This document shows, one piece after another, positions 9,776-29,429 of a stretch of 64,000 nucleotides of DNA. How positions within the stretch are numbered: position 1 is the stretch's first letter; every line of letters starts with the position of its first letter. The stretch lies in contig JANGFR010000004.1 in assembly GCA_024707015.1 (NCBI GenBank), positions 1-64,000 of the forward strand. Direction: 5' to 3'. Under the pieces are notes generated by a model. The model worked only from the letters and a program-made list of their open reading frames with translations, had not been told where the DNA came from and searched no databases. The position numbers and the translations under genes were made by a program. This DNA comes from Candidatus Culexarchaeum yellowstonense. Lineage in GTDB: Archaea; Thermoproteota; Methanomethylicia; Culexarchaeales; Culexarchaeaceae.

Positions 9776-11512
9776 TCATCCCTCATAAAACTCTATTACT
9801 TTCTCTATGGACTTCTGAAGTTGCTCATCATACTTAGTAAATTTGTGTGTTGTGAACGTATAGTAGATATCTTGTTTTTGCTTCCCGAAAACGAAAAGCA
9901 AGTCAAGATAAATTTTCCTCTTAACGAGGCCACCACTACTTTCACCTATTACTGGATAAACTGCATGCAACCATATAGGTAACTTCTTAAATACATCGAG
10001 GAATGCATATAACTTTACATAATCAAAGTGATGAAAAGTTACTAGAATCTTTCCATCAGTAGACAGTTTATTAACTGCATGATAAAAGACTGAATATAAT
10101 TCATTTTTATATTTCATTAAATCTTCCTTACGTCTCAAAACTATTTCTTTCTGTAATAATTGCGTTAAATAATCTTCGTTGATTTCATCAATTATACTCA
10201 AACTAAATAATGACAAGTCTGAATAGTACTGATAATCCCCATAAGGTGGATCTGTGAATATTACATCAAAGTTTCCTTCCATTTGTGGAAGAACATCTTG
10301 TGCCGGACCATGGAAAACTTTGAATTTTAAGTCAATTTTTTGACGGTCAATATAGTCACGTGCCCTTTTAAGCTTTCTAAAAGCTGAAATCAAATTTCCA
10401 CGTCCTAATGGTAAAAGTTTACCATTTGAAAGCCTATATGCGAGTGGGTTTAATTCTACTGGCTGGGGTGGCAACCAGTAACTTTTAATTACAAATGCTG
10501 GAATAACTTTCAAATACTTATCAGAATAGTAGGCAAGAATAGAGCAAGAGCGGAGAGAATCAGAAACTAAAACTTTAGCTAATGTCCTATAGGGATCTAC
10601 CTGAAAATGATTTAAAAAAGCCTTGAATGTTAAAAACTGGCGTTGTGTTAGCAATTCATGAAAATATCTTAATCCCGCATTTAGCAATCGGTTTGTTTCA
10701 TTTAACCTTGGTATTTCTAACGAATTATATAACATATTCTGCGGATCGCAACGAAAATTACGAAAATCCTCCATATTTAATTCTTTAATATGCCTTTCAT
10801 GACATATTGGACAATAATACTCTAAAGCATATGGTGAAAGTTTAAAGTAATCTATCCTCTCGTACTTCTTATTAAATATATTTCCACAGAATTTACAATT
10901 AGTAAGCTCATGTTCATCAGAATATACCCTTCCGCACTTCTCACAAAAATAAGTCTTCACTTTTCCATCCTTAATCTTATTAAACTTAATCTGTAACTCC
11001 CCTTTCTTATTACTCCATGCTAAAAACGTATGAATTATTAGTGCATCATGACCTTTATCACATTTAGTACTCCACAATCCAAGTAAGCTATCAGCCACAT
11101 GTTTAATTTCATGTTCAAACCAATCAAAATCGACTTGAGATAACATCTTCAAAGAATTTAAGAAGAGACATGGTATCTTATTAATATCAACCCCAACAGG
11201 TTCGTATCCTAAAATGCTGCTTTCAATTAATATAGTACCACCACCAGCAAACGGATCTAGAAGTTTTTTACCTTTGACTTTCAATGGATTGAAATACAAG
11301 CTATTAACGAAGGACCGGTAATCATCAACATCATCTAAAACTTTTAAATCGAGTTCCGTGAAAGACAAAAATAACCTAACCACACCTGAATAGCGTCTTG
11401 CCCACCACTTATGGATCTCATAGAAAGGAAGCCTTCTAGCCCACTCGAGCTCTCTTGAAAACTCATTAACGACATCTAATAGATCACTAGGAATACGGTC
11501 TATTATTTTCAA
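9776..11512 (-). CDS. DNA methyltransferase, DUF1156-like, with internal zinc ribbons
   Basis: A 578-residue amino-methyltransferase. The N-terminus (IHKWWARRYSGV, residues 33-44) matches the start of DUF1156-type adenine-specific methylases. Motif I is LLDPFAGGGT (84-93) and the catalytic motif IV is DPPYGDYQY (about 422). The insert between them carries two zinc-ribbon cysteine sets, CEKCG...CKFCG and CPIC, presumably for DNA contact. It overlaps the upstream helicase gene by four bases. In defence loci such methylases mark host DNA so that a partner helicase or nuclease complex spares it. Target base and sequence are not visible. Confidence 0.88.
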   Translation of the reverse strand: MKIIDRIPSDLLDVVNEFSRELEWARRLPFYEIHKWWARRYSGVVRLFLSFTELDLKVLDDVDDYRSFVNSLYFNPLKVKGKKLLDPFAGGGTILIESSILGYEPVGVDINKIPCLFLNSLKMLSQVDFDWFEHEIKHVADSLLGLWSTKCDKGHDALIIHTFLAWSNKKGELQIKFNKIKDGKVKTYFCEKCGRVYSDEHELTNCKFCGNIFNKKYERIDYFKLSPYALEYYCPICHERHIKELNMEDFRNFRCDPQNMLYNSLEIPRLNETNRLLNAGLRYFHELLTQRQFLTFKAFLNHFQVDPYRTLAKVLVSDSLRSCSILAYYSDKYLKVIPAFVIKSYWLPPQPVELNPLAYRLSNGKLLPLGRGNLISAFRKLKRARDYIDRQKIDLKFKVFHGPAQDVLPQMEGNFDVIFTDPPYGDYQYYSDLSLFSLSIIDEINEDYLTQLLQKEIVLRRKEDLMKYKNELYSVFYHAVNKLSTDGKILVTFHHFDYVKLYAFLDVFKKLPIWLHAVYPVIGESSGGLVKRKIYLDLLFVFGKQKQDIYYTFTTHKFTKYDEQLQKSIEKVIEFYEG

Positions 11513-14500: not shown

Positions 14501-16290
14501 GGATTATTTCGGACAACTATTATGCAGAGTGATGACCGAAGGGTTGTTTCCTCATTTCTTCCTGCACGACCCACTCTTTGAATTATACTTTCCAGGGAAA
14601 ACGGTATGCCTGCATTAACAACAACCGAAACATTATCGTAATCAACTCCAAGCTCCAAGGTGGATGTCGTGAAAACAACGTCTATCGCGCCTGACTTTAT
14701 CCGTCGCTCCACATCAAAACGGTCCACTCTATCAGAAAAATGCACCTCCACATTCCCCTTAATAGATTCTCTTAGCAAATCAAGTTCTTCCTTTGACTCG
14801 CCTGACATCTTATACTCTTCATTATATACCCAATAACAAAAAGCGTCTTCTGGAGATAAGTCTGGATGTAAATGATCTCTTGGATCACCAAGTTTAACAG
14901 CTTCTAAAAGTTGTGTGTATATTCTCGAAATACTCCTTATACCATCCACAAAAATGAGACTTTGAAGATTCTTTTTGGTTCTAATCCTATTTACGGTAGA
15001 AAGGAAAATAGCCAACTCATGTATATATGTTTCCCAAGAGGTGAATGGATGAATTGCAATTAATAAGTATAGTTCAAGTTTATGCTCGTCTATGCCATGA
15101 GTCTTCTCATTATACACTAAATTTATGAAATCAGCCAAACTTAACCCACTAATTTCTTGAATAAATTCTTCAAATTTTGGAATAGTTGCAGATGAGAAAA
15201 CAAGACGCCCTTTTGGGGTGACGAGTGAGCGCAATATATGAACAAAATATCTTAATATCCCTGCATTTATACTTCGATATGCATGAACTTCATCGAACAC
15301 TAAGAATTTGATATTCTCAGAAAGATAACCATTTTTCCAATAAACGGGATCACATAAACGAAACTGGTAAGCCCAAATATTAGTGATTAAAATAGTTGGA
15401 GGATGTTGCTTGAAATCTTCTCTTGTTAAAGCAATAAACTTAAATGAATCATTACATTTCCGACAAAATACTTTGCCATCTTTCACTAAAAGTTTCTCAT
15501 CTTTGTGCACTGGGCACATAATCCCCCTGTATTCGTCAAAATTCCTTATCTTCCTTTTTTCTTTAACATCTCCATCATCAATACCAATACTTATATTCAA
15601 ATTCAATTCTCGATTTAAATAGTAAACTATTCTAATGAGTCGCCCCATCTGGTCAGATCCAAGCGATTTTCTCGGATAAAAAAGGACAGCAGCTACTCCC
15701 TTTCTTCCCTCCAATACACTTTTAATGGCAAAAAGCAAAATTGGGATCAGAAAAATATACGTTTTTCCAAACGCAGTTGGAGCGCAGATAACAACATTCT
15801 TATCCTCTCTCAAAAATTGTAAAATCGATAAAAACTGATACTTTGACAGCCCCTTTAATCCAGCATCGATTAAAGCTTCAATAAACTTGTCAACCAAATC
15901 TGCAGGAATTATCTTTGAAAATTCCTTCTTTAACTCCTCCAGATTCTGATCGTTTTTGCTGAAATTAACATACTCAAAAGAACAAAAGGGGCGTAACTGA
16001 AGATCAAGAGATGATTCCAAAACATACTTAGTTCCACCATACTTTATACGTATATCCGATGCCCTATAAGCAACATCCATCAATAAACTATGATACAAAT
16101 TTTGTGAAACCTTTATTACGAAACCCTCCTTTATAAGGTTTGAAAGAACTTCATCGGATATCCCTAAACTGTGAATCTCTTCATATGTTAAGAAAGTGTC
16201 CCCAATTTTACCTGTTTTCCTATATTTTTCATACTCATACTTTACTATTCTATGATATACATTACTCAAATACTTTAAATTAAATGACAT
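11509..16290 (-). CDS. DEAD-type helicase fused to DUF1998-like and phospholipase-D domains
   Basis: A 1593-residue protein with superfamily-2 helicase motifs: Walker A APTAFGKT (170-177), a zinc-ribbon insert (CPVH...CRKC), DEVH (about 330), SSAT (about 360), LELGVDY (about 538) and QRVGRAGR (about 567). A Cys-rich segment lies near 1071. The cysteine cluster CADGCEDCLILYRGC (about 1429) resembles the DUF1998 signature of MrfA and DrmB. The last 100 residues form a PLD module with one HKD-like motif, HAKVYLLLFGK...GSMN (about 1539). DISARM encodes helicase, DUF1998 protein and PLD protein separately (DrmA, DrmB, DrmC); here comparable parts are one chain. The methylase follows with a four-base overlap. 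Confidence 0.85.
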   Translation of the reverse strand: MSFNLKYLSNVYHRIVKYEYEKYRKTGKIGDTFLTYEEIHSLGISDEVLSNLIKEGFVIKVSQNLYHSLLMDVAYRASDIRIKYGGTKYVLESSLDLQLRPFCSFEYVNFSKNDQNLEELKKEFSKIIPADLVDKFIEALIDAGLKGLSKYQFLSILQFLREDKNVVICAPTAFGKTYIFLIPILLFAIKSVLEGRKGVAAVLFYPRKSLGSDQMGRLIRIVYYLNRELNLNISIGIDDGDVKEKRKIRNFDEYRGIMCPVHKDEKLLVKDGKVFCRKCNDSFKFIALTREDFKQHPPTILITNIWAYQFRLCDPVYWKNGYLSENIKFLVFDEVHAYRSINAGILRYFVHILRSLVTPKGRLVFSSATIPKFEEFIQEISGLSLADFINLVYNEKTHGIDEHKLELYLLIAIHPFTSWETYIHELAIFLSTVNRIRTKKNLQSLIFVDGIRSISRIYTQLLEAVKLGDPRDHLHPDLSPEDAFCYWVYNEEYKMSGESKEELDLLRESIKGNVEVHFSDRVDRFDVERRIKSGAIDVVFTTSTLELGVDYDNVSVVVNAGIPFSLESIIQRVGRAGRNEETTLRSSLCIIVVRNNPLEYFYIYKGIRELTDINKIPKIPVSYSNVFVASYSALLYTLAYYGKRGGDLLRLRGSKEIAYMILDKTSSILPQIVRDLGISVDIKDIIEELKKITQILLQPNVEDRFKNIKYWKERVWLLNELNSFIDEFNNLLISMENELDKLSLKEKKLLTEKIGRLKLELLKMREGVKKVDLDIIKESVSEVIQNLMDIRSSIRVEYHPLYSFEGDLVELDYKLVKYFKPQIVILSKVNGVDGVSDEEFVKYYKAEEMYKKLSEHPINLVESMIGFRFMGNEFIDQLVTIGAELYTQTSKKEEFLSDVISRTPPFEPITIPFEERTQREITSCVGARHFWLVKPQKGFYIFPSEIYKKVATNDLIKGEAEKYKDILIPSQIDFLDMLTLEKAFIFKMQCKDGKPLYIKYGSEKINTSKIDGDKYLLYKNIGKLYQLEVTNGLYDVIKNKTINYLQRIDNEIQNSGDKWGLNFRYPYICFLGYCISVDPFDKSCPIAKTECTVIGCDGNKHWSGRIRKRRIFPKFYVNMNVRNLPQVDEPLTYHVKTMTYDELREDVEFVYDKVTVYLPRGFNDYLLREFEICPLGYLARTSLICLMFNQTLLDIILLNILRERNDIVNLLKFKFYMYRKLLEKGSYIDAALDYVKYDATKVETNSMEFINFVRECLIHTIAHLFFIFLITKKVQVDPDRITYFVKGSSIYVLEKSKNDGIGLVETVRNEIKSVGEKRFMEEFIEWSIDFLEKHDKRMENDSKILMSDSKNYLSKLSSQQEVRDKIVALQKKIGELNEKINSHIKLDFIDIVTYRHILSQELMKWEEYSDDLSEYLLPIIHSEGVPKLCADGCEDCLILYRGCTEPFLQNYIISRNLTITFLKIFKRGHLTFIGKGFGEFLKKLMKKSEKVIVKVPFIDDYGLSILLECKKSGVNVEVLTRPDNPYINELEKHGIRVTTHLTHAKVYLLLFGKQKISIHGSMNLTRSSFMENEEDVVILWDDDHKATLPGDCD

Positions 16291-16371
16291 TCATTTTCAC
16301 TAAAAATAATATAATTCCCCTATTTAATATTCTTTATTTCATAAGATGTCGAGGTAACATTTAAAAAGTCA
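16291..16371. promoter_or_regulatory. divergent promoter of the helicase operon and HEPN gene
   Basis: The 81 bases between the two divergent starts are strongly AT-rich. On the minus strand AATTATAT lies about 25 bases before the helicase ATG, suggesting a leaderless or very short-leader transcript. Shared control of the helicase operon and the membrane HEPN gene is therefore plausible. Confidence 0.45.
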
Positions 16372-18018
16372 TTGAGACAAATCAAGATAGTGTCTATACG
16401 CCAAGAAATACTATATTCATTAATACTTGTCTTCATAAGCTTTTCAGCACTATTTATCCTGACATATCTTCTATCTATGCCTGTAAACTTGTATGTTCTC
16501 GTTTTTATTTCATTTTATATCTTAGCAGGTCCCTTCCTATCAACTATTCATCATAAGAATACATATTTTGCTGTGTTACCTATCCCATATTTAGGCCTTT
16601 GGCTTATTTCCGTGATATACTTTACATCCATAAATGTCCCATATACGCTTTCCATATATTTGGTCTCAATAATACCTGCCTTGTTAACAACATACATGCA
16701 TCTTTTCTCGAGAATGAGAAGCATGGTGTTTAATCGCGTTCCAATATCATATTTTGCAAAGACAGCTTCTGCCATAACCTCAATAGTTCTTCTCTTCTTA
16801 GGACTTCTAATATTGGGTTCGGCACCCATAAAACTTGAGCCTTCCAATAAAGCCACACTCTATGCACTATTATCAGTTACATACTGCTCCTTTACACTCA
16901 CTCAAATAAACTCTGCTTACCGATATAGGTTGATCTGCAAAACGCTAAATACAAGTAAAGTGGAAAATAAGATGGCAGCATCATTTGAAGAACTTTTGAC
17001 AAAATTTCCTCAGAAGAAAAATAAGGTAAACATGCTAAGATATTACTTTTTAGAAGCAATACGCTTATTTGAAGAAGGCTCCTATGAAATGGCATTTCTT
17101 ACAGCTTATATAATCATAAGGGATACAATAGTCGAAGATCCAAAGGAATACGTTTCAGACAAAAGAGAAGGAGAACCATCATCCTTCTCAGACATAAGGG
17201 CAATACTCGTACACTCACGACAGAAATACAAACAAATTGCAGAAATCAGAAAGAAACTTCCAGAATACACCCTAGAAATAATACAAAGAGCAGTAACATT
17301 CATTGAAAACCTTGTTTCCAACAAAAAGATGGTTTCTAAGAGAGAAGGGTTTGCAAGTTTTATTGCTAATGTAGCAAGAGAAAATGAAAGTTTCCTAAAT
17401 AGGAAGGCAAAGGAATCCTTTGAGGAAGTTGTAGAACTGGTAAACGATGCAATAGATTATGTAACCTTCTTTATTGAGAGAAAAAAGGTTGAAGAAAGTG
17501 CTACTCACCCCATGATTTTCTTTGCCTTCAATATTTTAATGCCATTTAGCTACGGAATACTTACTGACCTGCTAATCGGCAACTTGCCTGCATGCTTCTA
17601 TGAACTGAGAATAATGCTAGAATCAATTGCAAAATGTTACATTGCAGAATTACACCAAGAAGAAACTTTATTCTTTGAAGATAAACTCCTCTCATTGGAA
17701 AAAGTGCTAGAAGAGAGGGGAATAAGTACTTCTAAATTGTTAGGAGAATTTGGGGAAATGGTGGAGCTAGGCGATGAACCACTTAAACTATGGGGAAAAA
17801 TATCTCGAAATTGGGTTCATACAATTGGAATTGTAAGCAATATTGTAAAACAAGTCATCGAAAAATCAGAACCACCCACATATGCCCTAGCATTACCCAT
17901 GGTGTATAGCGAAGCCGACTTAACCACAATAGAAGAACTTGGCAAACAAGTATCCAGCTTCAGGAAAATACTAAAAACAACAATGGATAAATACAAAGAA
18001 GAAAGAATAACAGGTTAG
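16372..18018 (+). CDS. membrane-anchored HEPN-domain protein
   Basis: Residues 12-180 hold about six hydrophobic segments (near 12-34, 40-58, 66-84, 90-108, 132-152, 160-178). The rest is soluble and helical. A helix with LFEEGSYEMAFLTAYIIIRD (232-251) followed by DIRAILVH is a HEPN fold, with R276-x4-H281 matching the HEPN ribonuclease motif. A second helical region ends in SRNWVH (R479-x3-H483), possibly a further degenerate HEPN unit. HEPN proteins often act as RNA-cleaving effectors in defence systems. It is divergent from the helicase operon. The start may be TTG 16372 or GTG 16390. Function is inferred. Confidence 0.65.
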   Translation: MRQIKIVSIRQEILYSLILVFISFSALFILTYLLSMPVNLYVLVFISFYILAGPFLSTIHHKNTYFAVLPIPYLGLWLISVIYFTSINVPYTLSIYLVSIIPALLTTYMHLFSRMRSMVFNRVPISYFAKTASAITSIVLLFLGLLILGSAPIKLEPSNKATLYALLSVTYCSFTLTQINSAYRYRLICKTLNTSKVENKMAASFEELLTKFPQKKNKVNMLRYYFLEAIRLFEEGSYEMAFLTAYIIIRDTIVEDPKEYVSDKREGEPSSFSDIRAILVHSRQKYKQIAEIRKKLPEYTLEIIQRAVTFIENLVSNKKMVSKREGFASFIANVARENESFLNRKAKESFEEVVELVNDAIDYVTFFIERKKVEESATHPMIFFAFNILMPFSYGILTDLLIGNLPACFYELRIMLESIAKCYIAELHQEETLFFEDKLLSLEKVLEERGISTSKLLGEFGEMVELGDEPLKLWGKISRNWVHTIGIVSNIVKQVIEKSEPPTYALALPMVYSEADLTTIEELGKQVSSFRKILKTTMDKYKEERITG

Positions 18019-18072
18019 CTTCGCCAGATTTTAACATTTAATTCTTTAATCTGTATTAAAAAGTTTTATATT

Positions 18073-18094
18073 TTTTAAAGTTATAACTTTAAAA
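18073..18094. promoter_or_regulatory. 22-base perfect palindrome upstream of the RecD2-like gene
   Basis: TTTTAAAGTTA is followed directly by its exact reverse complement, giving a perfect 22-base palindrome that ends 46 bases before the ATG at 18141. It lies between a TTTTATATTTTT stretch and the gene and is a good candidate operator. An 17-codon frame begins inside its last base and overlaps the start of the helicase gene; this may be chance. Confidence 0.5.
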
Positions 18095-18140
18095 TGAAGT
18101 CAATCTTTAATGCAAGAACATTATTAATAGGGTTGTCATT

Positions 18141-21100
18141 ATGGTGAAACATGTTTCTATTCGGGTTGCTTGGCATGATAGTTGCTGGAATGGCAAGATA
18201 TGTAAATCTCCAGAGAGAAATGTCTATTGTGTTGGAAACTATTCGCTTCTTTCTCCAAGACTACAGCGCAGAAGAGATGCTACCCTTGAAAAAATATATA
18301 GTGGTCAGGCAGTTTCTAATGTTATAAAAGAGAGAAACTATCTCCCCCCATGCTACTGGTCGATAAACATTCAAGGAGAAGATTCATTTTCAATTGAAGA
18401 TCCTCACCCTTTTTCAGATACAGAAACTTGGGGAAAAAAGTTTAGGGAAAATGTACCACCCTTGAAAGATATTTTGAAAGATCACTCAGTTTTTACATGG
18501 TGCTTTAAAATATCATTTGAAAGAGAGGACCCAAATCAGCTTTATCCGCCTATCGAGGTACTAGAAAAAAGAGTTAATGAATATTTAGAAGAACTCGTTC
18601 AAGGGAAATCTATAGTATTCTTCTATTCTAACTTCAGCAATCCAATAACTGGTGATGAGTACAAGTATCTACTGATAGGTGCTGGATTATTAAAGAATGT
18701 TGATAAACCAACGTACTATAATATACCTAAAGATCTCTTGCAGAACATACGGTCCAAACCTAAAATGAAGAACTTCCCAGAATTAGCATGGCAATTCCAA
18801 TTAACATTCGACCCTGATACGATAATTATTCTACCATATCACAGGTACCTAGAATGGATTCAGGAAAAAGATTCAATTGATGTACGTGAAAAATGGAGAA
18901 AATTAGAAGAAGTCGCCATCCCTATAGAAGAAGAAAACCTAATTCCACATTTCAAATATGTTTCAATGCACATACCACATGATAAATGCATCTATCTTCT
19001 TTACTTAATGAAGAAGTCTTTAGAAAAAATGAAAGAACATAAATTAGTAGATTATGAAGAGTTGAAGAATATTGAGAGTAGGCTGGATAAATTATTAAGG
19101 GTTGCATGGAAGGAAAAAGGCATGTTTCCAGGTTTTCCCAATGTGATTAAAGTATTTCTCAAAAATGATTTTAACCTTAAAGATGAACAATTAAAAAATC
19201 TTGTTCAAAAAATCCAAGAGTACATTAATCAAAAATTTGGGAGTTTAGAGAATTTCTTCAAAAGTCAATTGACTAGTGAATTGTCAACCAATAATCATCA
19301 GCTTAATAGGGCTTTAGGAATAATTTGTAAAAGAAAGGAGCTAATTGAGTTTCTATCTCAATTTGATTTTTCAGCAACTCAGTTTAACCGCGTTTTAGAA
19401 ATAATAAATAAGGTAGGAATAAATGAGGTAAAGAAGAACCCATATATTATACTTGAAAAATACCAATATGAACCTGTAGATGAACTTTTAATAGATGAAA
19501 GCGATTATGGTATAAGCTTATACCAGATCGATATAGCATTAATTCCAGATCCCTCCTATACTGATTGGCCTGCACTATATGATGCGCAATCACCTCAAAG
19601 AATACGTGCTGTGATCACTAAGGTATTATATGATGCGGCCTTTGAGGAGGGGCACTCTTGTTTAACACGCGACGAAATCATAAAGCGTGTAGAGGAATAT
19701 CCTCTCTACTATATTAATGCTAAACTTAAACTAGATATCGACAGACTCTTAGATTATGAAAAAGAAGCATTTTTCAGGGAGAACTTCATTATACGTGAAG
19801 CTTTGGAAAAGGAAAAAACGATATACCAATTAAAGCTTATTCGGGAAATAGAAAAGATAATTGAAGATTTTATCCTTTATATGTTAAAGAATAGGTATGA
19901 GTTATCTCAAAAGGATAAGTCAGATATAGATACGATATTAAATGAAGAATACGGTGAATGGGAAGAAAGACTTGATTTAAATGAGCGTAGAAAGCTCTAT
20001 GAGAACGCTTTAAGTAATGGTGTATTCTTTGTTTCAGGAAGAGCTGGTAGTGGAAAGACGAGTGCGATAGTACGTCTTGTTAAAAAGTTTATGGCTGATG
20101 GACATAAGCCAATTTATATCTTTACACCGACTGGGAAAGCAAATTTAGTAATTAGAAAGAGGCTCAAAGAAATAGGTGTGCGCATAGATGATAAACACTT
20201 AGTGGTATCAACAATTCATAGGTTCTTATACACCAAATTATTCGATTATATTAAAGTGGTAAATAAACGGGATAAGGATAAAATATTTTTAATCAGAGAT
20301 CTTATTGAACAAATCTTATCAGGGAAACTTGAAGTTCTCAGTCAATTTAGAAGTTTAGCTGAGCAGTTCAGATTAGGACCTAAAGTAGTCATCATAGATG
20401 AAGCATCTATGGTGGACGAAGTCTTATTGGCTTTACTTTTCTCTATGATTAGAACAGACGCTTTAAGACACTTAATCATCGTAGGTGATGAAAAGCAACT
20501 CCCTCCAATTGGTGTAGGCAGACCATTTGTAGACATCATATACTATTTGAAGAAGAACAGCCTTGAAACGCACTATATACGCCTAGAATCAAACTTAAGG
20601 TTTGACCCCTCTGCATCTATCGGAATACTTGCAGAATTATTCAGTAGCGAGAAACCACCATTTCCATCAGAAATATCCACAGTCCTGAGCAAATTAGACA
20701 ATACAGTCGAATTATTTTACTTCAAAGATAAAGACGAGCTGAAAAACATCCTTGCAAATATCTTGCGACAAAGAGGAGCTGCCGCAACCGATTCCTTATC
20801 TGAAATGTTTAGTAGCATCTTTGAAGCTAATGGTTCACTTTATCTTGATAAAGTACAGATAATATGTCCCAGAAGAGTAGGCGATTTTGGATCTATTGCA
20901 ATAAATATAGGGGTGATTCGTGATAACAAAGCTGATTTCACTCCTAGATCCAAAATCATTTGTGAAAAGAACATATATGTTGATGCTATTGACAAGGATG
21001 GAAATAAAAGACGCATTCTTGGGTTAGCTAATGGCTCCATAGGTTACATACGGCCAGATGGTGATATATATTTTGAAGATTTAGAAGATATAAAAGCTGA

Positions 21101-21845
21101 ATATAAACATGTGTATTTATCACCTATAATAAACGAGATATTTGGAGATTTCACAGTCCTTAAAACTGAGAGAGATATAGATTTTGGATATGCTATAACA
21201 GTTCATAAGTCTCAAGGAAGCGATTTCGATTATGCCATCCTTATCTTACCAGAAGTAAGTCCATTCATTACAAAGGAGCTACTGTACACCGCATTCACAC
21301 GGCCAAAATTAAAGCTTTATTTAGTTATTCACAGTAGCCTCAAAGAAGAGCTACCCATAATATTATGCCATGCTTATGAAAACTCTGCAATAGAATCAAT
21401 AAAAACTCTACTATTTGGTTATAAAGCTTCACCATTAAAACCATACATAGTCGCATTAAGAAATAATAAAACTATAGAGGTAAAATCCAAAATTGAATAT
21501 ATAATAGCGAAAGCACTTGATGAGTCCAACGTGGAATTTGAATACGAGCCTAAAGAATTTTTCGAAGAATATCACATTATACCTGACTTCAAGATATCTA
21601 TCGATGGAGAAGTCTATTACATGGAACACCTCGGTAACATGAGTAATCCAAGCTATCGAAACAGATGGTTCCAAAAATTCGAAATCTATAAAAAACTTGG
21701 AATATCGGACAAACTAATTACAACTAGCGAAAGCGAAGAAAAATCAAACCCAGAAGAAAACATTAAGAAAATAATAGATGATATCAAAGCAAAACGTATA
21801 AAAACAACTGAAGGAGGCTACTCTCTACATCACTATTACATTTAA
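18141..21845 (+). CDS. RecD2-like superfamily-1 helicase with C-terminal nuclease-like domain
   Basis: A 1234-residue protein. The N-terminus carries WHDSCWNGKICKSPERN then YCVG, a His/Cys-rich block that looks like a metal site. Helicase motifs follow: Walker A GRAGSGKT (about 633), Walker B IIDEASM (about 750), GDEKQLPP (about 783), VHKSQGSDFDYA (about 1020) and YTAFTRPK (about 1052), the RecD/UvrD order. The last 120 residues (E near 1118, PDF near 1148, YYMEHLG near 1158, then a K...Y helix) resemble a PD-(D/E)XK nuclease. It follows the HEPN gene in the same direction after 122 bases with its own palindrome. It probably unwinds and cuts DNA. Confidence 0.85.
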   Translation: MVKHVSIRVAWHDSCWNGKICKSPERNVYCVGNYSLLSPRLQRRRDATLEKIYSGQAVSNVIKERNYLPPCYWSINIQGEDSFSIEDPHPFSDTETWGKKFRENVPPLKDILKDHSVFTWCFKISFEREDPNQLYPPIEVLEKRVNEYLEELVQGKSIVFFYSNFSNPITGDEYKYLLIGAGLLKNVDKPTYYNIPKDLLQNIRSKPKMKNFPELAWQFQLTFDPDTIIILPYHRYLEWIQEKDSIDVREKWRKLEEVAIPIEEENLIPHFKYVSMHIPHDKCIYLLYLMKKSLEKMKEHKLVDYEELKNIESRLDKLLRVAWKEKGMFPGFPNVIKVFLKNDFNLKDEQLKNLVQKIQEYINQKFGSLENFFKSQLTSELSTNNHQLNRALGIICKRKELIEFLSQFDFSATQFNRVLEIINKVGINEVKKNPYIILEKYQYEPVDELLIDESDYGISLYQIDIALIPDPSYTDWPALYDAQSPQRIRAVITKVLYDAAFEEGHSCLTRDEIIKRVEEYPLYYINAKLKLDIDRLLDYEKEAFFRENFIIREALEKEKTIYQLKLIREIEKIIEDFILYMLKNRYELSQKDKSDIDTILNEEYGEWEERLDLNERRKLYENALSNGVFFVSGRAGSGKTSAIVRLVKKFMADGHKPIYIFTPTGKANLVIRKRLKEIGVRIDDKHLVVSTIHRFLYTKLFDYIKVVNKRDKDKIFLIRDLIEQILSGKLEVLSQFRSLAEQFRLGPKVVIIDEASMVDEVLLALLFSMIRTDALRHLIIVGDEKQLPPIGVGRPFVDIIYYLKKNSLETHYIRLESNLRFDPSASIGILAELFSSEKPPFPSEISTVLSKLDNTVELFYFKDKDELKNILANILRQRGAAATDSLSEMFSSIFEANGSLYLDKVQIICPRRVGDFGSIAINIGVIRDNKADFTPRSKIICEKNIYVDAIDKDGNKRRILGLANGSIGYIRPDGDIYFEDLEDIKAEYKHVYLSPIINEIFGDFTVLKTERDIDFGYAITVHKSQGSDFDYAILILPEVSPFITKELLYTAFTRPKLKLYLVIHSSLKEELPIILCHAYENSAIESIKTLLFGYKASPLKPYIVALRNNKTIEVKSKIEYIIAKALDESNVEFEYEPKEFFEEYHIIPDFKISIDGEVYYMEHLGNMSNPSYRNRWFQKFEIYKKLGISDKLITTSESEEKSNPEENIKKIIDDIKAKRIKTTEGGYSLHHYYI

Positions 21846-21992
21846 AAATAAAAAAATTATATTTAATTGCCCTGCTTGAATCCATAATGTACACGAAGAA
21901 GCAGAAAAATTTTAACAACTATAAAAGATACTATTTTACCTAGTTTTTTCAATATCTACTTTATCAACATTGTTATATATGTTTCAGCAAAT

Positions 21993-22181
21993 TCATGTTT
22001 TCACGTATCCCTTTCCTTTCTGAAGCTTCAACACGAAGCTAAGCTTCCCACTCTTATCATAGTATTCTTGGTATCGTGTTCCACAATTGCTACATGTATA
22101 TGCTTGGACTGTGAAATTCCCATACTTCCACATCTTTCTTGGACTTGAATTCACAAATCCACAATTCGGACATTTACTCAT
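21993..22181 (-). CDS. small two-CxxC zinc-ribbon protein
   Basis: A 62-residue protein with CPNCGF at residues 4-9 and CSNCGTRY at about 30-37, the spacing of a single zinc ribbon, followed by a basic C-terminal strand. It shares its layout (CPxCGF, a Trp, CxNC, then an F-x-I/L-K strand) with the zinc-ribbon gene at 23050-23274, so the two may be paralogues. It converges on the RecD2-like gene. Likely a DNA- or protein-binding accessory of the island. Confidence 0.65.
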   Translation of the reverse strand: MSKCPNCGFVNSSPRKMWKYGNFTVQAYTCSNCGTRYQEYYDKSGKLSFVLKLQKGKGYVKT

Positions 22182-22324
22182 GATATTACCTTTGACAATT
22201 TGAACATAAAAGGTTTTAGACTGTCTTTTACTTAAATATTTTAAGTAGTATAATCAGGAAGTGGCCCCCTTTTTACACAATACATTAAAAGTAATTTCTT
22301 AAATTTTTAATAGCTCACTTCCTT

Positions 22325-22693
22325 CTAGTGTACATTTGAGTCTATACGTTTTATATGAGTTGATGCGGAATCCATATTAGCTTTATTTAAGTGTTCTGCA
22401 TGATTTAAAATTATGTTATATGCTATTGTTAGGTCTCTCTCAGTATCCTCTACACTTCTAGAGCCAGCACATATCATGGCTCCAGAACTAAAGATAGTAA
22501 CTATACTCCTCATACCATCAATTTTCAAATAGGCACATCTATATTTTGGATATCTTGAATTAAGCTTAACATTATTTGGAAGCTTGGCAGCTAGCGCTTC
22601 AAGATCCACTTTAAAGGGTAACTTGCAAGTGGCGACTACATTGACGATTTCAACATTTATGTCTTCAATCTTCTCCGAAGGTTTCACAACCAT
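22325..22693 (-). CDS. single-repeat TATA-binding-protein homologue
   Basis: A 122-residue protein in which residues 12-100 align by eye with one repeat of archaeal TBP: VEIVNVVATCKLPFKVDLEA, then LPNNVKLN, YPKYRCAYLKI, and VTIFSSGAMICAGSRSVEDT. Normal TBP has two such repeats in about 180 residues; here there is one plus a short polar tail ending in HIKRIDSNVH. AAGGGGGTTA precedes the ATG and a TATTTAAA element lies 45-55 bases upstream. It could dimerise to rebuild a TBP saddle, or act as a TBP mimic or regulator of the flanking defence operons. The family call is firm; the role is inference. Confidence 0.75.
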   Translation of the reverse strand: MVVKPSEKIEDINVEIVNVVATCKLPFKVDLEALAAKLPNNVKLNSRYPKYRCAYLKIDGMRSIVTIFSSGAMICAGSRSVEDTERDLTIAYNIILNHAEHLNKANMDSASTHIKRIDSNVH

Positions 22694-22830
22694 TAACCCC
22701 CTTCTTTCGCATCTCCTGGGTAAGCATGAATTTCTTAGTTTAAATACATAACTTCTATAGTGCTAATTGCATATAAAGTATTTACTTTAAATGGTATCCT
22801 GTTTTCCAATGAGCATTGGAGTATCTAAAC

Positions 22831-22867
22831 CTTTATATACAATTTTACCTATACTTATGATAGGTAA
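22831..22867 (+). promoter_or_regulatory. TATA box and 8-7-8 inverted repeat before the AbrB operon
   Basis: CTTTATATAC at 22831-22840 is a TATA element predicting transcription from about 22861. TTACCTAT at 22845-22852 and ATAGGTAA at 22860-22867 are perfect inverted arms around seven bases, overlapping the expected start site and the ribosome binding site AGGT. A protein bound here would block both. The first gene of the operon encodes an AbrB-type DNA-binding protein, so autoregulation is likely. Confidence 0.6.
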
Positions 22868-22873
22868 TTGGCA

Positions 22874-23053
22874 ATGGGAGAGGTTACAGTTCTTACTAAA
22901 GCTACATCGAGAAGCAGGTCTTTAAGAACAACTATCCCCATTGGAATTGTTAAGCAATTTAATCTTTCAGTGGGTGATAAGCTTAGTTGGGAGATTAGGG
23001 CTGAGGGTGGAGATCTTATAATTGTTGTTAAACCATTAAAAAATAGAGGATGA
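22874..23053 (+). CDS. AbrB/SpoVT-type regulator of the defence operon
   Basis: A 59-residue swapped-hairpin protein: SLRTTIPIGIVKQFNLSVGD and KLSWEIRAEGGDLIIVVKP. It is almost only the DNA-binding domain, without an antitoxin tail. The ATG at 22874 has AGGT at a suitable distance; a TTG two codons earlier is less likely. Its stop overlaps the next ATG (ATGA). It heads a five-gene operon with zinc ribbon, restriction-modification enzyme, BrxL and PLD protein, so it most likely represses that operon through the inverted repeat at 22845-22867. Confidence 0.8.
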   Translation: MGEVTVLTKATSRSRSLRTTIPIGIVKQFNLSVGDKLSWEIRAEGGDLIIVVKPLKNRG

Positions 23054-23274
23054 AGAGGGGTAGGAGGAGTATGGTTAAGTGTCCTTATTGTGGCTTTGAG
23101 GGGGAGTTTAAGAGTTTAAAGACGTGGAGATTTAGGTTTTACGATGTTGAGAAATTGGAGTGCCCGAATTGTAGGGGGATATTCAATCATTATCATGGTT
23201 TAAGTCCTAGGAGCAATAAGATGTCAGAATTCGTTATAAGGATTAAGCCTAAAACCTCTGGTGGTGTTGTGTGA
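23050..23274 (+). CDS. small zinc-ribbon protein of the RM-BrxL operon
   Basis: A 74-residue protein with CPYCGFEG and CPNCRGIF as the two halves of a zinc ribbon and a C-terminal FVIRIKPK strand. Its first ATG overlaps the AbrB stop, while an ATG at 23071 (MVKCPYCG) lies just after GGAGGAG; either could be used. Its end overlaps the GTG of the restriction-modification gene (GTGTGA). Strict coupling suggests it is a subunit or chaperone of the next enzyme, perhaps for DNA binding. Confidence 0.7.
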   Translation: MKRGRRSMVKCPYCGFEGEFKSLKTWRFRFYDVEKLECPNCRGIFNHYHGLSPRSNKMSEFVIRIKPKTSGGVV

Positions 23275-26200
23275 GCTCCCGTGTTACAACTCCCCCCGTG
23301 GATATAGATGGCATTGTAGCTTGCTTTAAGAACTCTATTATGAGGGCTCGTAGTGAAGAGGATGTTAGGGTATGGGTTTCTATATGTATTGAAGAACTTA
23401 TCCTAAAACCTTTGGGTATAATGCAAGTTGGTAAGTATGAGTATACCTTGATATCTGGTGCTAGAGTTGATGCACTTTACGGGCATGTGGTTATCGAATA
23501 TAAAGCACCAGGTAAACTCTCTACTCAAAGTGATATTCAAAGAGCTAGGGAGCAAGTTATAAGATACATAACGCAAGAGGCTGGTAACAAGGCTGAGTAT
23601 GCAAGATACTTGGGGGTTATAATTAGCGATAAGATTGCCTTCGTTAAATATGACCAAAGAACCGATACATGGATTTTGAGAGGCCCCTACGATATTAGAA
23701 GGGAAGCAATAGTTAAGTTCGTAGAAGCTCTAAGAGGTCTCAGGAGGAAGCCTCTAGATGTGGAGCATCTGCTAAGCGACTTTGGACCTAAATCTGAGGT
23801 TACAATTAAATTGGTTAGGGCATTTTATGATATGATAATCAGCCTTAAGGATGATAGTAGAGCTAAACTATTATTCAGCGATTGGATGAGGCTCTTCAGA
23901 CAGGCAACTGGATATAGACCTGAAGAGTTGGAGGAACTTCCAAAGTTAGCCTCCGAATATGGAATTCAAGGAAGCGTAAATTATGATGCATTAATATTCT
24001 CTATACACACATTCTATGCTCTACTGCTAAAGCTAATAGCAGCAGAAATAACATACCTTTATGGTGGAGGGAAATTCTACAGGTCGTATATAGCTGAACT
24101 GGATGATGCATACTCCAAAGGTGGTTTAGATGAATTAAAGAGGACTCTACAAGAACTTGAGAGTGGGGGCATATTCAAGAGGTTATTAAGCATTGAAAAC
24201 TTCCTCGAAGGAGACTACTTCTCTTGGTATTTAGATGTATTCGACAAAAACTTAGCAGACCTAATAGCGGAACTTGCTAGGCAACTATCTGATTATGAGA
24301 TTGCCACACCACAATTAGAACCAGAATTCGCAAGAGACTTACTTAAGAGACTATACCAAAACCTAGTACCAAGCGACCTAAGACATAGACTAGGAGAATT
24401 CTACACACCCGACTGGCTAGCCAACTACCTACTCGACGAAGTTGGATTAAGCTTCGAAAACCTCAACAAAATCGGCGAAGAAGACCCTCTAAAGCCCCTA
24501 AATATTAGAGTCCTAGACCCCGCATGCGGCTCAGGCACCTTCCTAGTACTCTACATAAGTAGGCTTAGAAGATACGCTGAAGAGCACTACCTAACCGATA
24601 TGCTCTTAAGGTATGTATTAGACAACGTTGTAGGTTTTGACCTAAACCCACTAGCAGTATTAACCGCTAGAACAAACTACCTACTGGCAGTAGCAGACCT
24701 CTTAGCCTACAGCACCGGAACAGTAGAGATACCCATATATCTAGCCGACTCGATAATGGTCGAAAAGCAAGGTAAAATGGTTGGAAACGTATATATTCTG
24801 AGGACTAGCGCTGGAGACTTCGAAATACCCATTAACATAGTTAAAAAGGGATTATTAACGAACGTACTGGCCGAAGTAACTAGAGGTCTTGAAAACAAAT
24901 ATGAAGCTGAAACCTTCAAGAAGAGGCTGGAATTATCCTACAAGCTTAACTCAGGAGAACTCAACACCCTAGCCGAACTTTACAAGAAACTCCTAAAGCT
25001 AGAAGAGGAGGGTAAGAATAGAGTATGGGTAGCAATAATAAGGAATGCCTTCGCCCCCATACTCAAAGGCAAATTTGACTACGTAGTGGGCAATCCACCA
25101 TGGGTTAACTGGGAAAACTTACCAGAATCCTATAGAGAAGCCAGTAAGGAACTCTGGGATAAATACGGTCTAGCAGAAATTAGGGGGAAGACGGGTCTAG
25201 GTAAAGTTAAAAGAGATCTGGCAATGCTTTTTATGGTCAGATGTTTCGACTTATACCTGAAGGAAGGCGGTAAACTAGGCTTCCTTGCACCATTCACCAT
25301 GTTTAAAACACAAGCTGGCGCAGGATTCAGAAACTTCCTAGCCAGAAAAACTAAAATCCACGTTATACATGACCTAGTAACCCTTTATCCATTTGAAGGA
25401 GCAGTAAACAGAACTTCAGCCATAGTAATTGAAAAAATCTGCGAAATAGATCCAAACAAAATACCAGATAATATGAAAGATGCCCTACACAAAGCCTTCG
25501 AGGAAAATATGAAGGGAGTAAGACACGTTATATGGATTAACCCAAGCGGCAAAGCCATACCCACAGACAAACCTTTAGAAGATGTTCTCAAAGAAACTAA
25601 GAGATACGAAGCTATTATGATCCCCCTAGAACCTAAGAAACCTGAGTCGCCATGGATGCAAATAACACCCAAAGTAATTGAAGCTGTCAGAAAATTGCTA
25701 ACTGGGCCACAGTATTATAAGGCACATGCAGGAATTGTTGTCGCCTTAAACCAGGTTTATTTTGTTCAAATAAAGGGAAAGACTCCTGAGGGGAAGCTAA
25801 TAATAACAAATCCGCCTGAGCCAGGACAAAAAAAGAAGGTAAAGCAAATGGAGGCTGTTATAGAATCAGATTTAGTATATCCACTAATAAGGGGGAAAGA
25901 TATTAAGAAGTGGTATGTGGATTTTAAGGATAGATACGTAATTTTACCTGTAGACGCTGATGGTAAAGACATTAACTCTGATGATATGAAGGTAAAATAT
26001 CCAGGCGCTTACAGCTACTTCTTTAACTTCTTCGATGACCTAATAAATAGAGGCGGAGAACCTTATAAATCGAAGCTAGATCCATATAAAAAGCTACCTC
26101 TGAACGTTGTAGAGAAAAAAGCACCGCCATTTTATTGGATATTTAATGTAAAACCAAATCTAGCACCTTATAAGGTTGTATGGAAAGAAATCGCCGGTGC

Positions 26201-26999
26201 TATTACCGGGAAGGCTGTTAGTTTTGCATGTGCTGTTATTGAACCTATAAACGGTAAACCTGTTATCCCAGATCATAAGGCTATATTAATAGTAGCTAAC
26301 AATTCTGAAGAAGCATACTATATATCAGGTTTCTTAAACTCTATTATAACAAGGGCTATTATAGCATCTTATACTTATGAATTGGGGTATGAAACTCATA
26401 TAGCTGATGTCATTAAGATTCCAAGGTTTAATCCAAATGATGATGTGCATAGGAGGATTGCTGAGCTTTCTAGGAGGGCTCATGAGCTTGCTAGATGCGT
26501 TTATGCTGGTGTTAAGCCTTATTATTGTAGGGGTATTGATGCTGAGGAGGAGCTTAAGAAGGTTGAGGGGGAGTTGGATTTGGCTGTGGCTCAGCTTTTC
26601 GGGCTTTCTAAGGATGATCTTAGTGAGTTTGAGAAGCTTATGGTTATCCTTTCTGGTGGGGAGCTTCCGGTTGAGGAGGTTGAGCTGCCTGAGGAGCCTA
26701 AGGTTTCCGTGCTTAACACTTTACTACCTCCTGATGTGCAGTCTTACATTGAGGTTGATGTTGTAAATCCATCTGGTGAAGAGCTGGAAGTGGTTTATGA
26801 GTTTCCTTGGGGTAAAGGTTCCTTCAAAATTGTTGAGGGTAAGTGTAGAATAGATGTTCCGCCGTTAAAGCCTGGGAAATATGGTGGCATTATAAGGTAT
26901 TGTTGGGGTGATGTTGAGAGGGTTATTGATGTTAATGTTGAGGTGTCGGAGCCTCCTGGTCCGAGGAGGCAGAGGAAATTGGTATTGGGTGATGGGTGA
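23271..26999 (+). CDS. type IIG-like restriction-modification enzyme (Eco57I/PglX-like)
   Basis: A 1242-residue fusion. Residues 40-110 look like a PD-(D/E)XK nuclease: E41/E42, D67 and E76-Y-K78 in VDALYGHVVIEYK. The methylase part has motif I VLDPACGSGTF (about 414) and motif IV NPPW (about 607), typical of N6-adenine enzymes of the Eco57I and PglX type. A target-recognition region follows, and the last 90 residues form a beta-sandwich-like extra domain. The GTG start overlaps the previous stop. With nuclease and methylase in one chain it could act alone, yet the downstream BrxL gene recalls BREX, where PglX lacks a nuclease. Confidence 0.85.
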   Translation: MSSRVTTPPVDIDGIVACFKNSIMRARSEEDVRVWVSICIEELILKPLGIMQVGKYEYTLISGARVDALYGHVVIEYKAPGKLSTQSDIQRAREQVIRYITQEAGNKAEYARYLGVIISDKIAFVKYDQRTDTWILRGPYDIRREAIVKFVEALRGLRRKPLDVEHLLSDFGPKSEVTIKLVRAFYDMIISLKDDSRAKLLFSDWMRLFRQATGYRPEELEELPKLASEYGIQGSVNYDALIFSIHTFYALLLKLIAAEITYLYGGGKFYRSYIAELDDAYSKGGLDELKRTLQELESGGIFKRLLSIENFLEGDYFSWYLDVFDKNLADLIAELARQLSDYEIATPQLEPEFARDLLKRLYQNLVPSDLRHRLGEFYTPDWLANYLLDEVGLSFENLNKIGEEDPLKPLNIRVLDPACGSGTFLVLYISRLRRYAEEHYLTDMLLRYVLDNVVGFDLNPLAVLTARTNYLLAVADLLAYSTGTVEIPIYLADSIMVEKQGKMVGNVYILRTSAGDFEIPINIVKKGLLTNVLAEVTRGLENKYEAETFKKRLELSYKLNSGELNTLAELYKKLLKLEEEGKNRVWVAIIRNAFAPILKGKFDYVVGNPPWVNWENLPESYREASKELWDKYGLAEIRGKTGLGKVKRDLAMLFMVRCFDLYLKEGGKLGFLAPFTMFKTQAGAGFRNFLARKTKIHVIHDLVTLYPFEGAVNRTSAIVIEKICEIDPNKIPDNMKDALHKAFEENMKGVRHVIWINPSGKAIPTDKPLEDVLKETKRYEAIMIPLEPKKPESPWMQITPKVIEAVRKLLTGPQYYKAHAGIVVALNQVYFVQIKGKTPEGKLIITNPPEPGQKKKVKQMEAVIESDLVYPLIRGKDIKKWYVDFKDRYVILPVDADGKDINSDDMKVKYPGAYSYFFNFFDDLINRGGEPYKSKLDPYKKLPLNVVEKKAPPFYWIFNVKPNLAPYKVVWKEIAGAITGKAVSFACAVIEPINGKPVIPDHKAILIVANNSEEAYYISGFLNSIITRAIIASYTYELGYETHIADVIKIPRFNPNDDVHRRIAELSRRAHELARCVYAGVKPYYCRGIDAEEELKKVEGELDLAVAQLFGLSKDDLSEFEKLMVILSGGELPVEEVELPEEPKVSVLNTLLPPDVQSYIEVDVVNPSGEELEVVYEFPWGKGSFKIVEGKCRIDVPPLKPGKYGGIIRYCWGDVERVIDVNVEVSEPPGPRRQRKLVLGDG

Positions 27000-27003
27000 T
27001 ATT

Positions 27004-28416
27004 ATGAGTGAATTGTTTAATAAGGTTAGGAAGTATTTTGGTGATTATGCTGTTGATAAGAGGCTTGCATATGAGCTTGAGTTGGCTAAGCTTCCAAGGT
27101 ATGTTGCTGAATTCTTGATTTCTGAGTTTATGAATCGTAGTGGTAATTGGGAAGCTGAGCTTAGGGATTTCATTAGAAATCACTATTATGAGCCTGAGGA
27201 GAAGGAGGTTGTTAAGCATAGGTTGGTTGTGGATGGGTTGGTGGAGCTTATTGATGAGTTGAGGGTTATCGTGGATATTGAGACGGGTACCCATGTGGGT
27301 GTTATACAGGCACTTGACATTTGGGCTGAAGTCCCCATAGATATTGTTGAGAGGAATAAGGCTACTCTGGTGACTGGTATGTGGGGTCTTATAACTCTTA
27401 TGAGGACAAATGAGGTTAAGGAGGTTTTTGGTAGACCTATAGGGGCTGCGATTACAGAGTTTCAACCTTTCCAATCACCAGACACTGACCCGAAGATATT
27501 GGAGGAGGCTAGGCAACATTTCACTTTTGATGAGTGGCTTGATGTCTTGATAAATACTATAGGGCTTGACCCCAGCGTCTATAGTCCAAGGCAAAAGATA
27601 CTTCTACTTTCAAGGTTGGTACCCGTTATTGAAGGTAATGTTAATATGGTTGAGTTTGGACCTAGGCAGACTGGTAAAACGTACCTATATAGGAATTTGA
27701 GCAACTACGTTAGGATAATATCAGGTGGCAACATATCGCCAGCAGCTCTCTTCTACAATTTGAGGACTAGGGTTCCCGGGGAGCTTGTTGTTAAAGACTT
27801 AGTTGTCTTTGATGAAGTTAGTAAGGTGAGGTTTCCAAATCCCGATGAAATGATGGGTAAACTTAAGGATTATATGGAGAGTGGTGTGTTCGAGAGGGGT
27901 GATAAGAAGGCTGTCTCCGATGCATCACTGGTGTTTATGGGTAACATATCAGTTGAAATGGTTTCCGAAGGCTATATACCCGTAGAAGACTTAACTTATG
28001 TACTTCCAGAGCCCATGAGAGACTCAGCCTTCATAGATAGGGTGCATGGACTCATACCAGGATGGGAACTTCCAAAAATATCTCAAGCAAAATATCACCT
28101 ATCAAAAGGCTATGGGATAGCTTCAGACTACTTCGCAGAAGCCTTACACTCCATGAGGAAGGAAAGCCTTGTCAGCATGGTCTCCAAACACATAGACCTC
28201 TCAGAAAACTTCAAGATAAGAGATGAAAAGAGCGTGAAGAAGATCATGAGCGGCTTACTAAAACTCCTATTCCCAAACAAAACATTCGATAAAAAGGACA
28301 TCGAAAAAATAGCAAACGCAGCACTCGAATATAGGCAGAGGATAAGAGACTGGCTACACAAAATAAACCCCGGAGAATTCCCAAAAGAGAAACTTGCTAT
28401 CACGGTGAGAACTTGA
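27004..28416 (+). CDS. brxL: BrxL-type AAA+ ATPase, short form (TIGR02688-like)
   Basis: A 470-residue protein. ATG 27004 follows GGTGATATT. Residues about 215-225, FGPRQTGKTYLYR, are the Walker A region; VVFDEVSKVRF (about 266), MKDYMESGVFERG, and FMGNIS are the conserved BrxL blocks, followed by DRVHGLIPGWELPKI. The C-terminal Lon-like protease domain of full BrxL (about 650-700 residues in enterobacteria) is missing, as in the short TIGR02688 forms. BrxL is a DNA-translocating ring ATPase required for phage exclusion in several BREX types. BrxC, PglZ and BrxA/B are not present here. Confidence 0.85.
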   Translation: MSELFNKVRKYFGDYAVDKRLAYELELAKLPRYVAEFLISEFMNRSGNWEAELRDFIRNHYYEPEEKEVVKHRLVVDGLVELIDELRVIVDIETGTHVGVIQALDIWAEVPIDIVERNKATLVTGMWGLITLMRTNEVKEVFGRPIGAAITEFQPFQSPDTDPKILEEARQHFTFDEWLDVLINTIGLDPSVYSPRQKILLLSRLVPVIEGNVNMVEFGPRQTGKTYLYRNLSNYVRIISGGNISPAALFYNLRTRVPGELVVKDLVVFDEVSKVRFPNPDEMMGKLKDYMESGVFERGDKKAVSDASLVFMGNISVEMVSEGYIPVEDLTYVLPEPMRDSAFIDRVHGLIPGWELPKISQAKYHLSKGYGIASDYFAEALHSMRKESLVSMVSKHIDLSENFKIRDEKSVKKIMSGLLKLLFPNKTFDKKDIEKIANAALEYRQRIRDWLHKINPGEFPKEKLAITVRT

Positions 28417-29429
28417 CAGTAATACATGATATCATTTCAGGTTTTGTAAGATTAGAAACTGATTTAAGAATTAGCGGTCCTCCACCATCCCTACAGATTG
28501 ATGTATATGGATGGCATAATTATAACGATAAGATTTCACATATCATAATTAATCTTAACGCTAAGATTTGGGGAGTCATCATAGGCTCCACGAGTGCAAC
28601 AATAGTTCTGAAGCCGCCACCTGGACGAAGTGGTCTCACGCTTCCAATACCTCTTCCAAGTGACGTGATTAGGATTATAGAAGGCGAAAGAGTGAGAAAA
28701 AGTGGAGATGTAGAAGTAGAATTGCTAATAACATGTTATTACGTAGGGTTACCCACAACATTATCTTATTCTTCCGCATTAACTGTAAGTGGACCGCATA
28801 ATTACGATGATAAGTTCACTGTAAGTCTTGTTGAATGGAAGAACGCGCTTGGACTTAAAGATTTTGAACCATTGTTAGTAAGTAGAAGTTCTGTTAGTAA
28901 ACTAGATGAGCTTAGACATAAATGGGGACTTTTTACACATGAAGATGTCCTTATAAGACTTACTGAGTTATACGAAGGTGTAAAAATAGAAAGACCTTAT
29001 GAATTATTGTTCACAGATCCGGAGATTAAGACTATAAAAAGCAAGCTTAGCTCTCTTGTGGAAAGTGGTATGTGGAGTGAAGTATATGCGGTAAGCTTAT
29101 ACCTTGATCATAGTGGTGCTGAATATCTAATGAAGTTAAGAAAGAAAGGTGCTCATATAAAGCTCTTAACAAGGAAACCTGACAAAAAAGAGTATATAGA
29201 TGCAATAAAGTATTTGAGGGACAACTATGTGGAAGTTAAATTTAACAATATGGCCCATGCAAGATTCATAGTATTCGATGAAGATGTAGCCATAGTTATG
29301 ACAGCTGACCTCGACGTTAATGGACTCGATAACCAAAGGCAAATCGGAGTCTATATTACGGATAGAGCTACTGTAAAGGCATGTAAAGCATTCTTCAATA
29401 AACTATGGGAAGAGTCCGAGCCCTCTTAG
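28413..29429 (+). CDS. PLD-like C-terminal protein coupled to BrxL
   Basis: A 338-residue protein starting at a TTG that overlaps the BrxL stop (TTGA). Residues 1-130 are beta-rich with no family I know; PPPGRSG is prominent. Residues 205-335 resemble a PLD-type fold: a strand-helix unit (YAVSLYLDHSGAEYL), then MAHARFIVFDE followed by MTADLDVNG. The HKD motif is altered to H-x-R, so nuclease activity is doubtful and it may bind DNA or phospho-groups. DISARM carries a stand-alone PLD protein (DrmC), making this a functional parallel. Confidence 0.65.
   Translation: MTVIHDIISGFVRLETDLRISGPPPSLQIDVYGWHNYNDKISHIIINLNAKIWGVIIGSTSATIVLKPPPGRSGLTLPIPLPSDVIRIIEGERVRKSGDVEVELLITCYYVGLPTTLSYSSALTVSGPHNYDDKFTVSLVEWKNALGLKDFEPLLVSRSSVSKLDELRHKWGLFTHEDVLIRLTELYEGVKIERPYELLFTDPEIKTIKSKLSSLVESGMWSEVYAVSLYLDHSGAEYLMKLRKKGAHIKLLTRKPDKKEYIDAIKYLRDNYVEVKFNNMAHARFIVFDEDVAIVMTADLDVNGLDNQRQIGVYITDRATVKACKAFFNKLWEESEPS

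Follow-up and report, generated by a model that had tools for sequence, protein, structure and literature searches.

A single-repeat TBP homologue in an archaeal defence island, and an atypical TBP subfamily associated with restriction-modification genes

Archaea and eukaryotes rely on TBP as the core factor in promoter recognition. It forms a two-lobed saddle that inserts pairs of phenylalanines into the minor groove and docks TFB through its C-terminal stirrup, with the zinc ribbon of TFB normally providing the contact with the polymerase. Proteins with one TBP domain reportedly exist in some archaea (Brindefalk et al. 2013, NAR 41:2832, a study cited in PMC7289017 and PMC4132731). To our knowledge, nothing well known in archaeal restriction-modification (RM) systems corresponds to the controller (C) proteins of bacterial systems. 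TBPs are also part of the TOTE and TALON conflict systems, where recognition or bending of invader DNA has been proposed for them; they accompany TPR-OB or TPR-CSD proteins there, and TALON is found mainly in Chloroflexota (PMC12458937, citing Aravind 2022). In a limited literature search, nothing was found on TBPs encoded in restriction-modification operons of archaea, and TBP goes unmentioned in a survey of archaeal immunity from 2026.

Here we analyze a single-repeat TBP homologue encoded in a stretch of 64,000 nucleotides from Candidatus Culexarchaeum yellowstonense (contig JANGFR010000004.1), hereafter the window. Its genome (G000) was compared with a congeneric sister genome (G001) and with a genome of a distant family in the same phylum (G087). 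The features of the locus, in window coordinates and with the promoter elements read from the sequence, are:

21993..22181, minus strand: ZnR62, 62-aa zinc-ribbon protein, paralogous to ZnR74 and encoded downstream of the TBP gene
22235..22815, no strand: TBP gene and its upstream region, a present/absent segment missing from a second G001 cassette
22325..22693, minus strand: single-repeat TBP, 122 aa, ATG start; TBP domain at residues 14-96, followed by a polar tail that is helical and poorly constrained
22694..22867, no strand: divergent promoter region of the TBP gene and AbrB, 174 bp, nearly unchanged in G001
22749-22740, minus strand: TATA-like ATGTATTTAA for the TBP gene
22831-22839, plus strand: TATA-like CTTTATATA for AbrB
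22845..22867, no strand: inverted repeat with perfect 8-bp arms, TTACCTAT-N7-ATAGGTAA, immediately before the start codon of AbrB
22868..23053, plus strand: AbrB/MazE-like DNA-binding protein, 61 aa (Pfam PF04014, 31.1 bits)
23050..23274, plus strand: ZnR74, 74-aa zinc-ribbon protein with two CxxC pairs, paralogue of ZnR62
23271..26999, plus strand: type IIG restriction enzyme-methyltransferase, 1242 aa (PADLOC REase_MTase_IIG, 1320 bits; Pfam Eco57I)
26986..28416, plus strand: BrxL-like protein, 476 aa (PADLOC BrxL, 367.7 bits)
28413..29429, plus strand: PLD-like, DrmC-like nuclease (Pfam PLDc_2; weak PADLOC DrmC match, 31.6 bits)

The open reading frame is genuine and lies where a sequence-only reading had placed it, and the description of its product as a lone TBP repeat is borne out: the Pfam TBP profile (PF00352) matches a single stretch, residues 14-96, with 58.4 bits against a cut-off of 22.9, so that the whole protein carries one TBP domain. 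A PDB sequence search returned TBPs only. The AlphaFold2 (AF2) model has a mean pLDDT of 83.8, with 88-97 per block across residues 11-100, and all 44 of its Foldseek matches in the PDB with E < 0.01 are TBPs, alone or in complexes; TBPs are matched with a probability of 1.0 and mostly at ~1.5-2.5 A across ~80 residues. Against viral structures, Foldseek gave mainly giant-virus TBP-like proteins with weak, uninformative scores, and no helix-grip family was found that fits the protein better than TBP. In alignments it keeps the S1 asparagine (N18), the second DNA-inserting phenylalanine (F68) and the xFxSGxxI core; the first DNA-inserting phenylalanine is substituted (Tyr48 region), and NSRYPKYRCAY stands in place of the EPEQFPG of C-repeats. 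Four repeat profiles detected no second TBP repeat in the six frames of window 19000-26000 (7 kb), nor at the G001 and G087 loci; a second repeat recoverable through a nearby frameshift, which the earlier reading had named as speaking against it, was looked for and not found, and is dismissed.

G000 also encodes a normal two-repeat TBP of 183 aa on another contig. The premise of the sequence-only reading that archaeal TBP always has two repeats is wrong, for G000 itself encodes other single-TBP-domain proteins. An 86-aa stand-alone protein with one divergent TBP-like domain (L004:1390-1650; contig C1:32551) is encoded between genes for a SufS-like cysteine desulfurase and an AlaX-like editing protein. 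A ThiF/MoeB-like E1 protein (L005:691-1713; contig C3:38143) ends in a single TBP-like domain, an apparent fusion.

Close homologues of the window protein are scarce, namely one of 95% identity in G001 and one of 54% identity in G087, both single-repeat. After these, the best matches are the first repeats of unusual two-repeat TBPs, in which a longer signature, e.g. YGGRVAYFKTKGMQGKVSIFSSGKMISVGTKS, takes the place of the usual FPG-LVFRL stretch in repeat 1, and the canonical TFB-contacting EPEQFPG is retained in repeat 2. This atypical, RM-linked TBP subfamily is a group defined in the present analysis. The window protein scores 59.0 bits with the profile of atypical N-repeats, 47.6 with canonical N-repeats, 37.0 with canonical C-repeats and 26.7 with atypical C-repeats, and the corresponding scores of the G087 homologue are 61.7, 21.5, 13.7 and 18.0; in the alignment, the window protein carries the N-repeat signature Y-x-(GG)-R-x-[AG]-Y-x-K-x(3)-M-x-[GS]-x-V-x-x-F. 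In a maximum-likelihood tree of 56 repeats and 88 sites, limited by short sequences and few taxa, the single repeats of the window, G001 and G087 form one clade (UFBoot 99) nested within the N-repeats of atypical TBPs (UFBoot 99), and the 86-aa protein of G000 sits on a long branch apart from the N-repeats. On these comparisons, the window protein is the N-terminal half of the atypical subfamily, its C-terminal half lost; the C-terminal repeat is missing in all three proteins, which make up a single-repeat branch of the subfamily. Because the tree nests the single repeat in a derived two-repeat subfamily, the single-repeat state is derived, through loss of the C-half. The proposal of an ancestral-like TBP is therefore not sustained, and an ancestral single repeat is ruled out by the tree. 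Since the state is common to G087 at 54% identity, it is no fresh truncation and, judged by this distribution, is old enough to be common to two families.

In G087 the homologue is encoded on contig 39 (GenBank CALKCG010000039) at the end of a same-strand run of genes for a DUF1156-type methylase, a 1060-aa ATPase-like protein, proteins of 275 and 160 aa, a zinc-ribbon protein and the TBP. The methylase gives a weak DUF1156_antiphage match, well below the equivalog cut-off, and the 106-aa zinc-ribbon protein a weak TFIIB-type match below the Pfam cut-off. The TBP frame is broken near residue 25, a frameshift that may be an assembly error, and an additional, decayed TBP fragment is present on contig 49.

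Within the one archaeal phylum surveyed, atypical TBPs are rare, a two-repeat member being found in 6 of 398 sampled genomes, and class-level searches yielded more. The sequence-only reading had proposed a check of whether homologues cluster with defence genes, and the relatives are indeed strongly enriched beside RM genes. Counted within 1.5 kb, restriction or defence genes accompany the TBP gene at 12 of the 21 subfamily loci and at 0 of the 50 canonical TBP loci (Fisher p 2e-8). The 21 loci are partly dependent, one cassette being common to G000 and G001 and several genomes belonging to one genus, though the RM types differ. As the original query set had been drawn in part from the same loci, a recount was made with queries from other loci only, giving 7/21 against 0/50 (p 8.7e-5). 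The subfamily is associated with RM and defence genes and travels with archaeal restriction-modification systems; the neighbouring systems comprise RM types I, IIG and III, an orphan methylase and Septu. Arrangements at individual loci are:

G215, same strand: hsdR-hsdS-hsdM-TBP, with an 8-nt overlap
G458, same strand: hsdR-hsdS-hsdM-TBP
G455, same strand: hsdR-hsdM-hsdS-TBP, then a putative recombinase
G327 (L095:9557-15646), same strand: hsdM-hsdS-PtuA-PtuB-TBP in one run, including a Septu pair
G663, same strand: N6 methylase, HsdS-like protein, TBP
G831, same strand: type III-like methylase, helicase, TnsA-like nuclease, TBP
G286, TBP convergent: type I system
G103, TBP convergent: PLD-helicase and type IIG enzyme
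G457, convergent with TBP: HsdM
G626: D12 methylase, TBP, integrase-like gene
G310, G361, G738, G740: TBP without RM or defence neighbours; tyrosine recombinases in G361
G825, G832: TBP without RM or defence neighbours, contig-edge cases

The atypical TBP of G327 may serve a composite defence operon. A viral contig with tail-like genes (L091:5977-6525; IMGVR_UViG_3300048598_000369) carries a differently diverged TBP, convergent to a type IIG enzyme and a helicase, and this virus seems to carry restriction genes together with the TBP. No relative of the window protein itself was found in phages, plasmids or two viral-contig scans, and a viral origin by direct homology is dismissed, the only relatives being two-repeat proteins on two IMG/VR contigs. 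Haloarchaeal plasmid TBPs are matched by a two-repeat query at 33-37% identity; the one inspected adjoins metabolic genes.

The defence-island setting, to which the sequence-only reading had attached weight, proves meaningful in view of this enrichment and of the immediate neighbours of the window gene, a type IIG restriction-methylase and BrxL. The type IIG gene starts 578 bp from the TBP gene, and BrxL is next. In the window and in G001, the TBP and ZnR62 genes diverge from a run of AbrB - ZnR74 - type IIG - BrxL; in the window the PLD gene comes last, and it is seen only there, because the G001 contig ends within BrxL. ZnR62 and ZnR74 share 36% identity (E 3.6e-5) and are the only two copies in the genome, and related zinc ribbons are found in 37/230 genomes of the phylum, several of them adjoining IIG-BrxL pairs. 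Sigma-70 and terminator scans gave chance-level results, their models not being applicable to an archaeon. The type IIG enzymes of window 23271-26999 and of L036:8739-12470 are nearly identical except for a block at ~residues 800-1000 that resembles a target-recognition region exchanged between enzymes. More defence genes lie at window 8372-21845:

9776-11512: methylase
11509-16290: DrmA-like helicase with a C-terminal PLD-like region
18141-21845: RecD-like helicase (PADLOC candidate PDC-S68, 1001 bits)

A second AbrB-ZnR74-IIG-BrxL cassette (L165), on contig 24 of G001, is 96.5% identical at its AbrB side and has no TBP gene, the 62-aa zinc ribbon standing directly upstream. Window segments 21993-22234 and 22816-23129 align with L165 by blastn, and the ~581 bp between them are replaced by ~45 bp. 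The IIG-BrxL pairs of five other genomes likewise come without a TBP gene, and ZnR74 is found at some IIG-BrxL cassettes in other genomes. Because a near-identical cassette lacks the TBP segment, the TBP gene is an accessory part. The view of TBP as a required part of the AbrB/zinc-ribbon cassette, suggested by its place beside those genes, fails on this cassette edge, and TBP as a necessary component of the IIG-BrxL cassette is ruled out, since the core occurs without it in other genomes. The inverted repeat TTACCTAT-N7-ATAGGTAA is identical in the L165 cassette and is a candidate AbrB operator, possibly autoregulatory.

Between G000 and G001, the TBP gene has a dN/dS of 0.40 (6 synonymous and 9 nonsynonymous, 15 changes only), and the values of ZnR62 and the IIG gene are 0.04 and 0.14. 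Three of the TBP substitutions fall in the domain (~96 residues) and the rest in the tail, a pattern that is weak evidence for constraint on the TBP domain.

Taken together, the analysis suggests that a core transcription factor has been co-opted as a dedicated regulator of defence genes. Our working reading, held with slightly less than even confidence, is that the isolated N-half of an atypical TBP binds AT-rich or TATA DNA as a probable homodimer and occludes or tunes promoters, limiting expression of the restriction enzyme. Having no C-half, the window protein has lost the TFB dock. A homodimer could rebuild the two-lobed saddle and would occupy AT-rich or TATA DNA without recruiting TFB; with no TFB-docking surface it would not start transcription, and would instead occlude or tune promoters. 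The most obvious target would be the 174-bp divergent promoter common to the TBP gene and the AbrB - ZnR74 - IIG - BrxL run, and restriction-enzyme expression would be limited in a manner analogous to that of bacterial RM controller proteins. Several points count against a regulatory role: the cassette also exists without the TBP gene and already has a candidate repressor in AbrB, the first DNA-inserting phenylalanine is substituted, the dN/dS of the TBP gene is based on 15 changes only, and of the G087 sequences one is frameshifted and the other decayed. Full-length relatives that retain TFB binding may be activators instead of repressors, which makes the direction of regulation a guess. The more specific proposition of a functional, homodimeric, TFB-blind half-TBP, from an undescribed archaeal subfamily dedicated to RM and defence operons, that competes for or reshapes promoters is possible but on the doubtful side.

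Several features would also fit a gene in decay, the relic of a mobile two-repeat TBP, with its C-half gone and no function left: the G087 frameshift and the fragment on contig 49, broken copies in G361, the dN/dS of the TBP gene and its absence from the sister cassette. This is unlikely, however, given that the gene is intact in two genomes, that its changes concentrate in the tail, that the AF2 model has a confident fold and that the three single-repeat proteins form one clade across two families at 54% identity. In both lineages the TBP repeat has a zinc-ribbon gene next to it, which encodes ZnR62 in the case of the window and G001 and the 106-aa protein in that of G087. Together with the strong constraint on ZnR62, this invites the idea of a split positive initiation factor, the TBP repeat sitting on the promoter and the small zinc ribbon contacting the polymerase to turn defence genes on. 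Yet ZnR62 is found without the TBP gene too (L165, L167), it has no detectable kinship with the G087 zinc ribbon beyond the metal-binding motif, and the TFIIB-type match of the latter is under Pfam's cut-off; we think such a factor quite unlikely.

A direct part in defence, with the TBP repeat recognizing or bending invader DNA and passing it to a nuclease or methylase, is very unlikely in our view: other genomes have the IIG-BrxL core as a conserved unit that lacks TBP, and no TPR-OB/CSD gene lies near the window gene, although the subfamily is tied to many RM types and TBPs are reported in TOTE and TALON (PMC12458937). We give least credence to the protein being a TBP variant of a virus or integrated element that steers or blocks host initiation and hitch-hikes with defence genes. 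Subfamily members do adjoin tyrosine recombinases (G361, G626, G455, G215) and do occur on IMG/VR contigs, but RM genes are found next to them more often, in many cases within a shared operon, and no integrase directly adjoins the window gene.

A TBP subfamily repeatedly found in RM operons, with a one-repeat branch, would illustrate the way in which a general factor turns into a regulator reserved for mobile defence genes. With the single repeat, an old question also becomes testable: can a lone TBP repeat homodimerize and so bind DNA? Models of how two-repeat TBP arose assume that it can, although the single-repeat state of the window protein is derived. Natural cassettes with and without the TBP gene are handy for testing.

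Compared with archaeal TBP (PF00352), the window protein is alike in repeat fold and sequence family (58 bits, TBP structure matches), but has one repeat and no EPEQFPG where archaeal TBP has two repeats and an EPEQFPG TFB-binding stirrup; the latter is a general transcription factor, whereas the window gene is accessory and lies in a defence island of a genome with its own normal TBP. It shares a stand-alone single TBP domain with the monopartite archaeal TBP-domain proteins and, as a derived N-repeat, is far closer to true TBP than the 86-aa protein of G000. As in TOTE and TALON, a TBP homologue is encoded with prokaryotic conflict or defence genes; unlike them, the window TBP has RM/BrxL partners, an archaeal host and a single repeat, and a search for a TPR-OB/TPR-CSD partner gave no Pfam TPR/OB match among the scanned neighbours. 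Bacterial RM controller proteins, likewise products of a small DNA-binding gene accompanying an RM system, afford a works-like comparison only, being helix-turn-helix proteins with no homology to the window TBP, and RM-linked TBPs are candidates for their archaeal counterparts. As far as our limited search extends, single-TBP-domain proteins and TBPs in conflict systems were known, and the linkage of TBPs to archaeal RM operons and the single-repeat branch are new.
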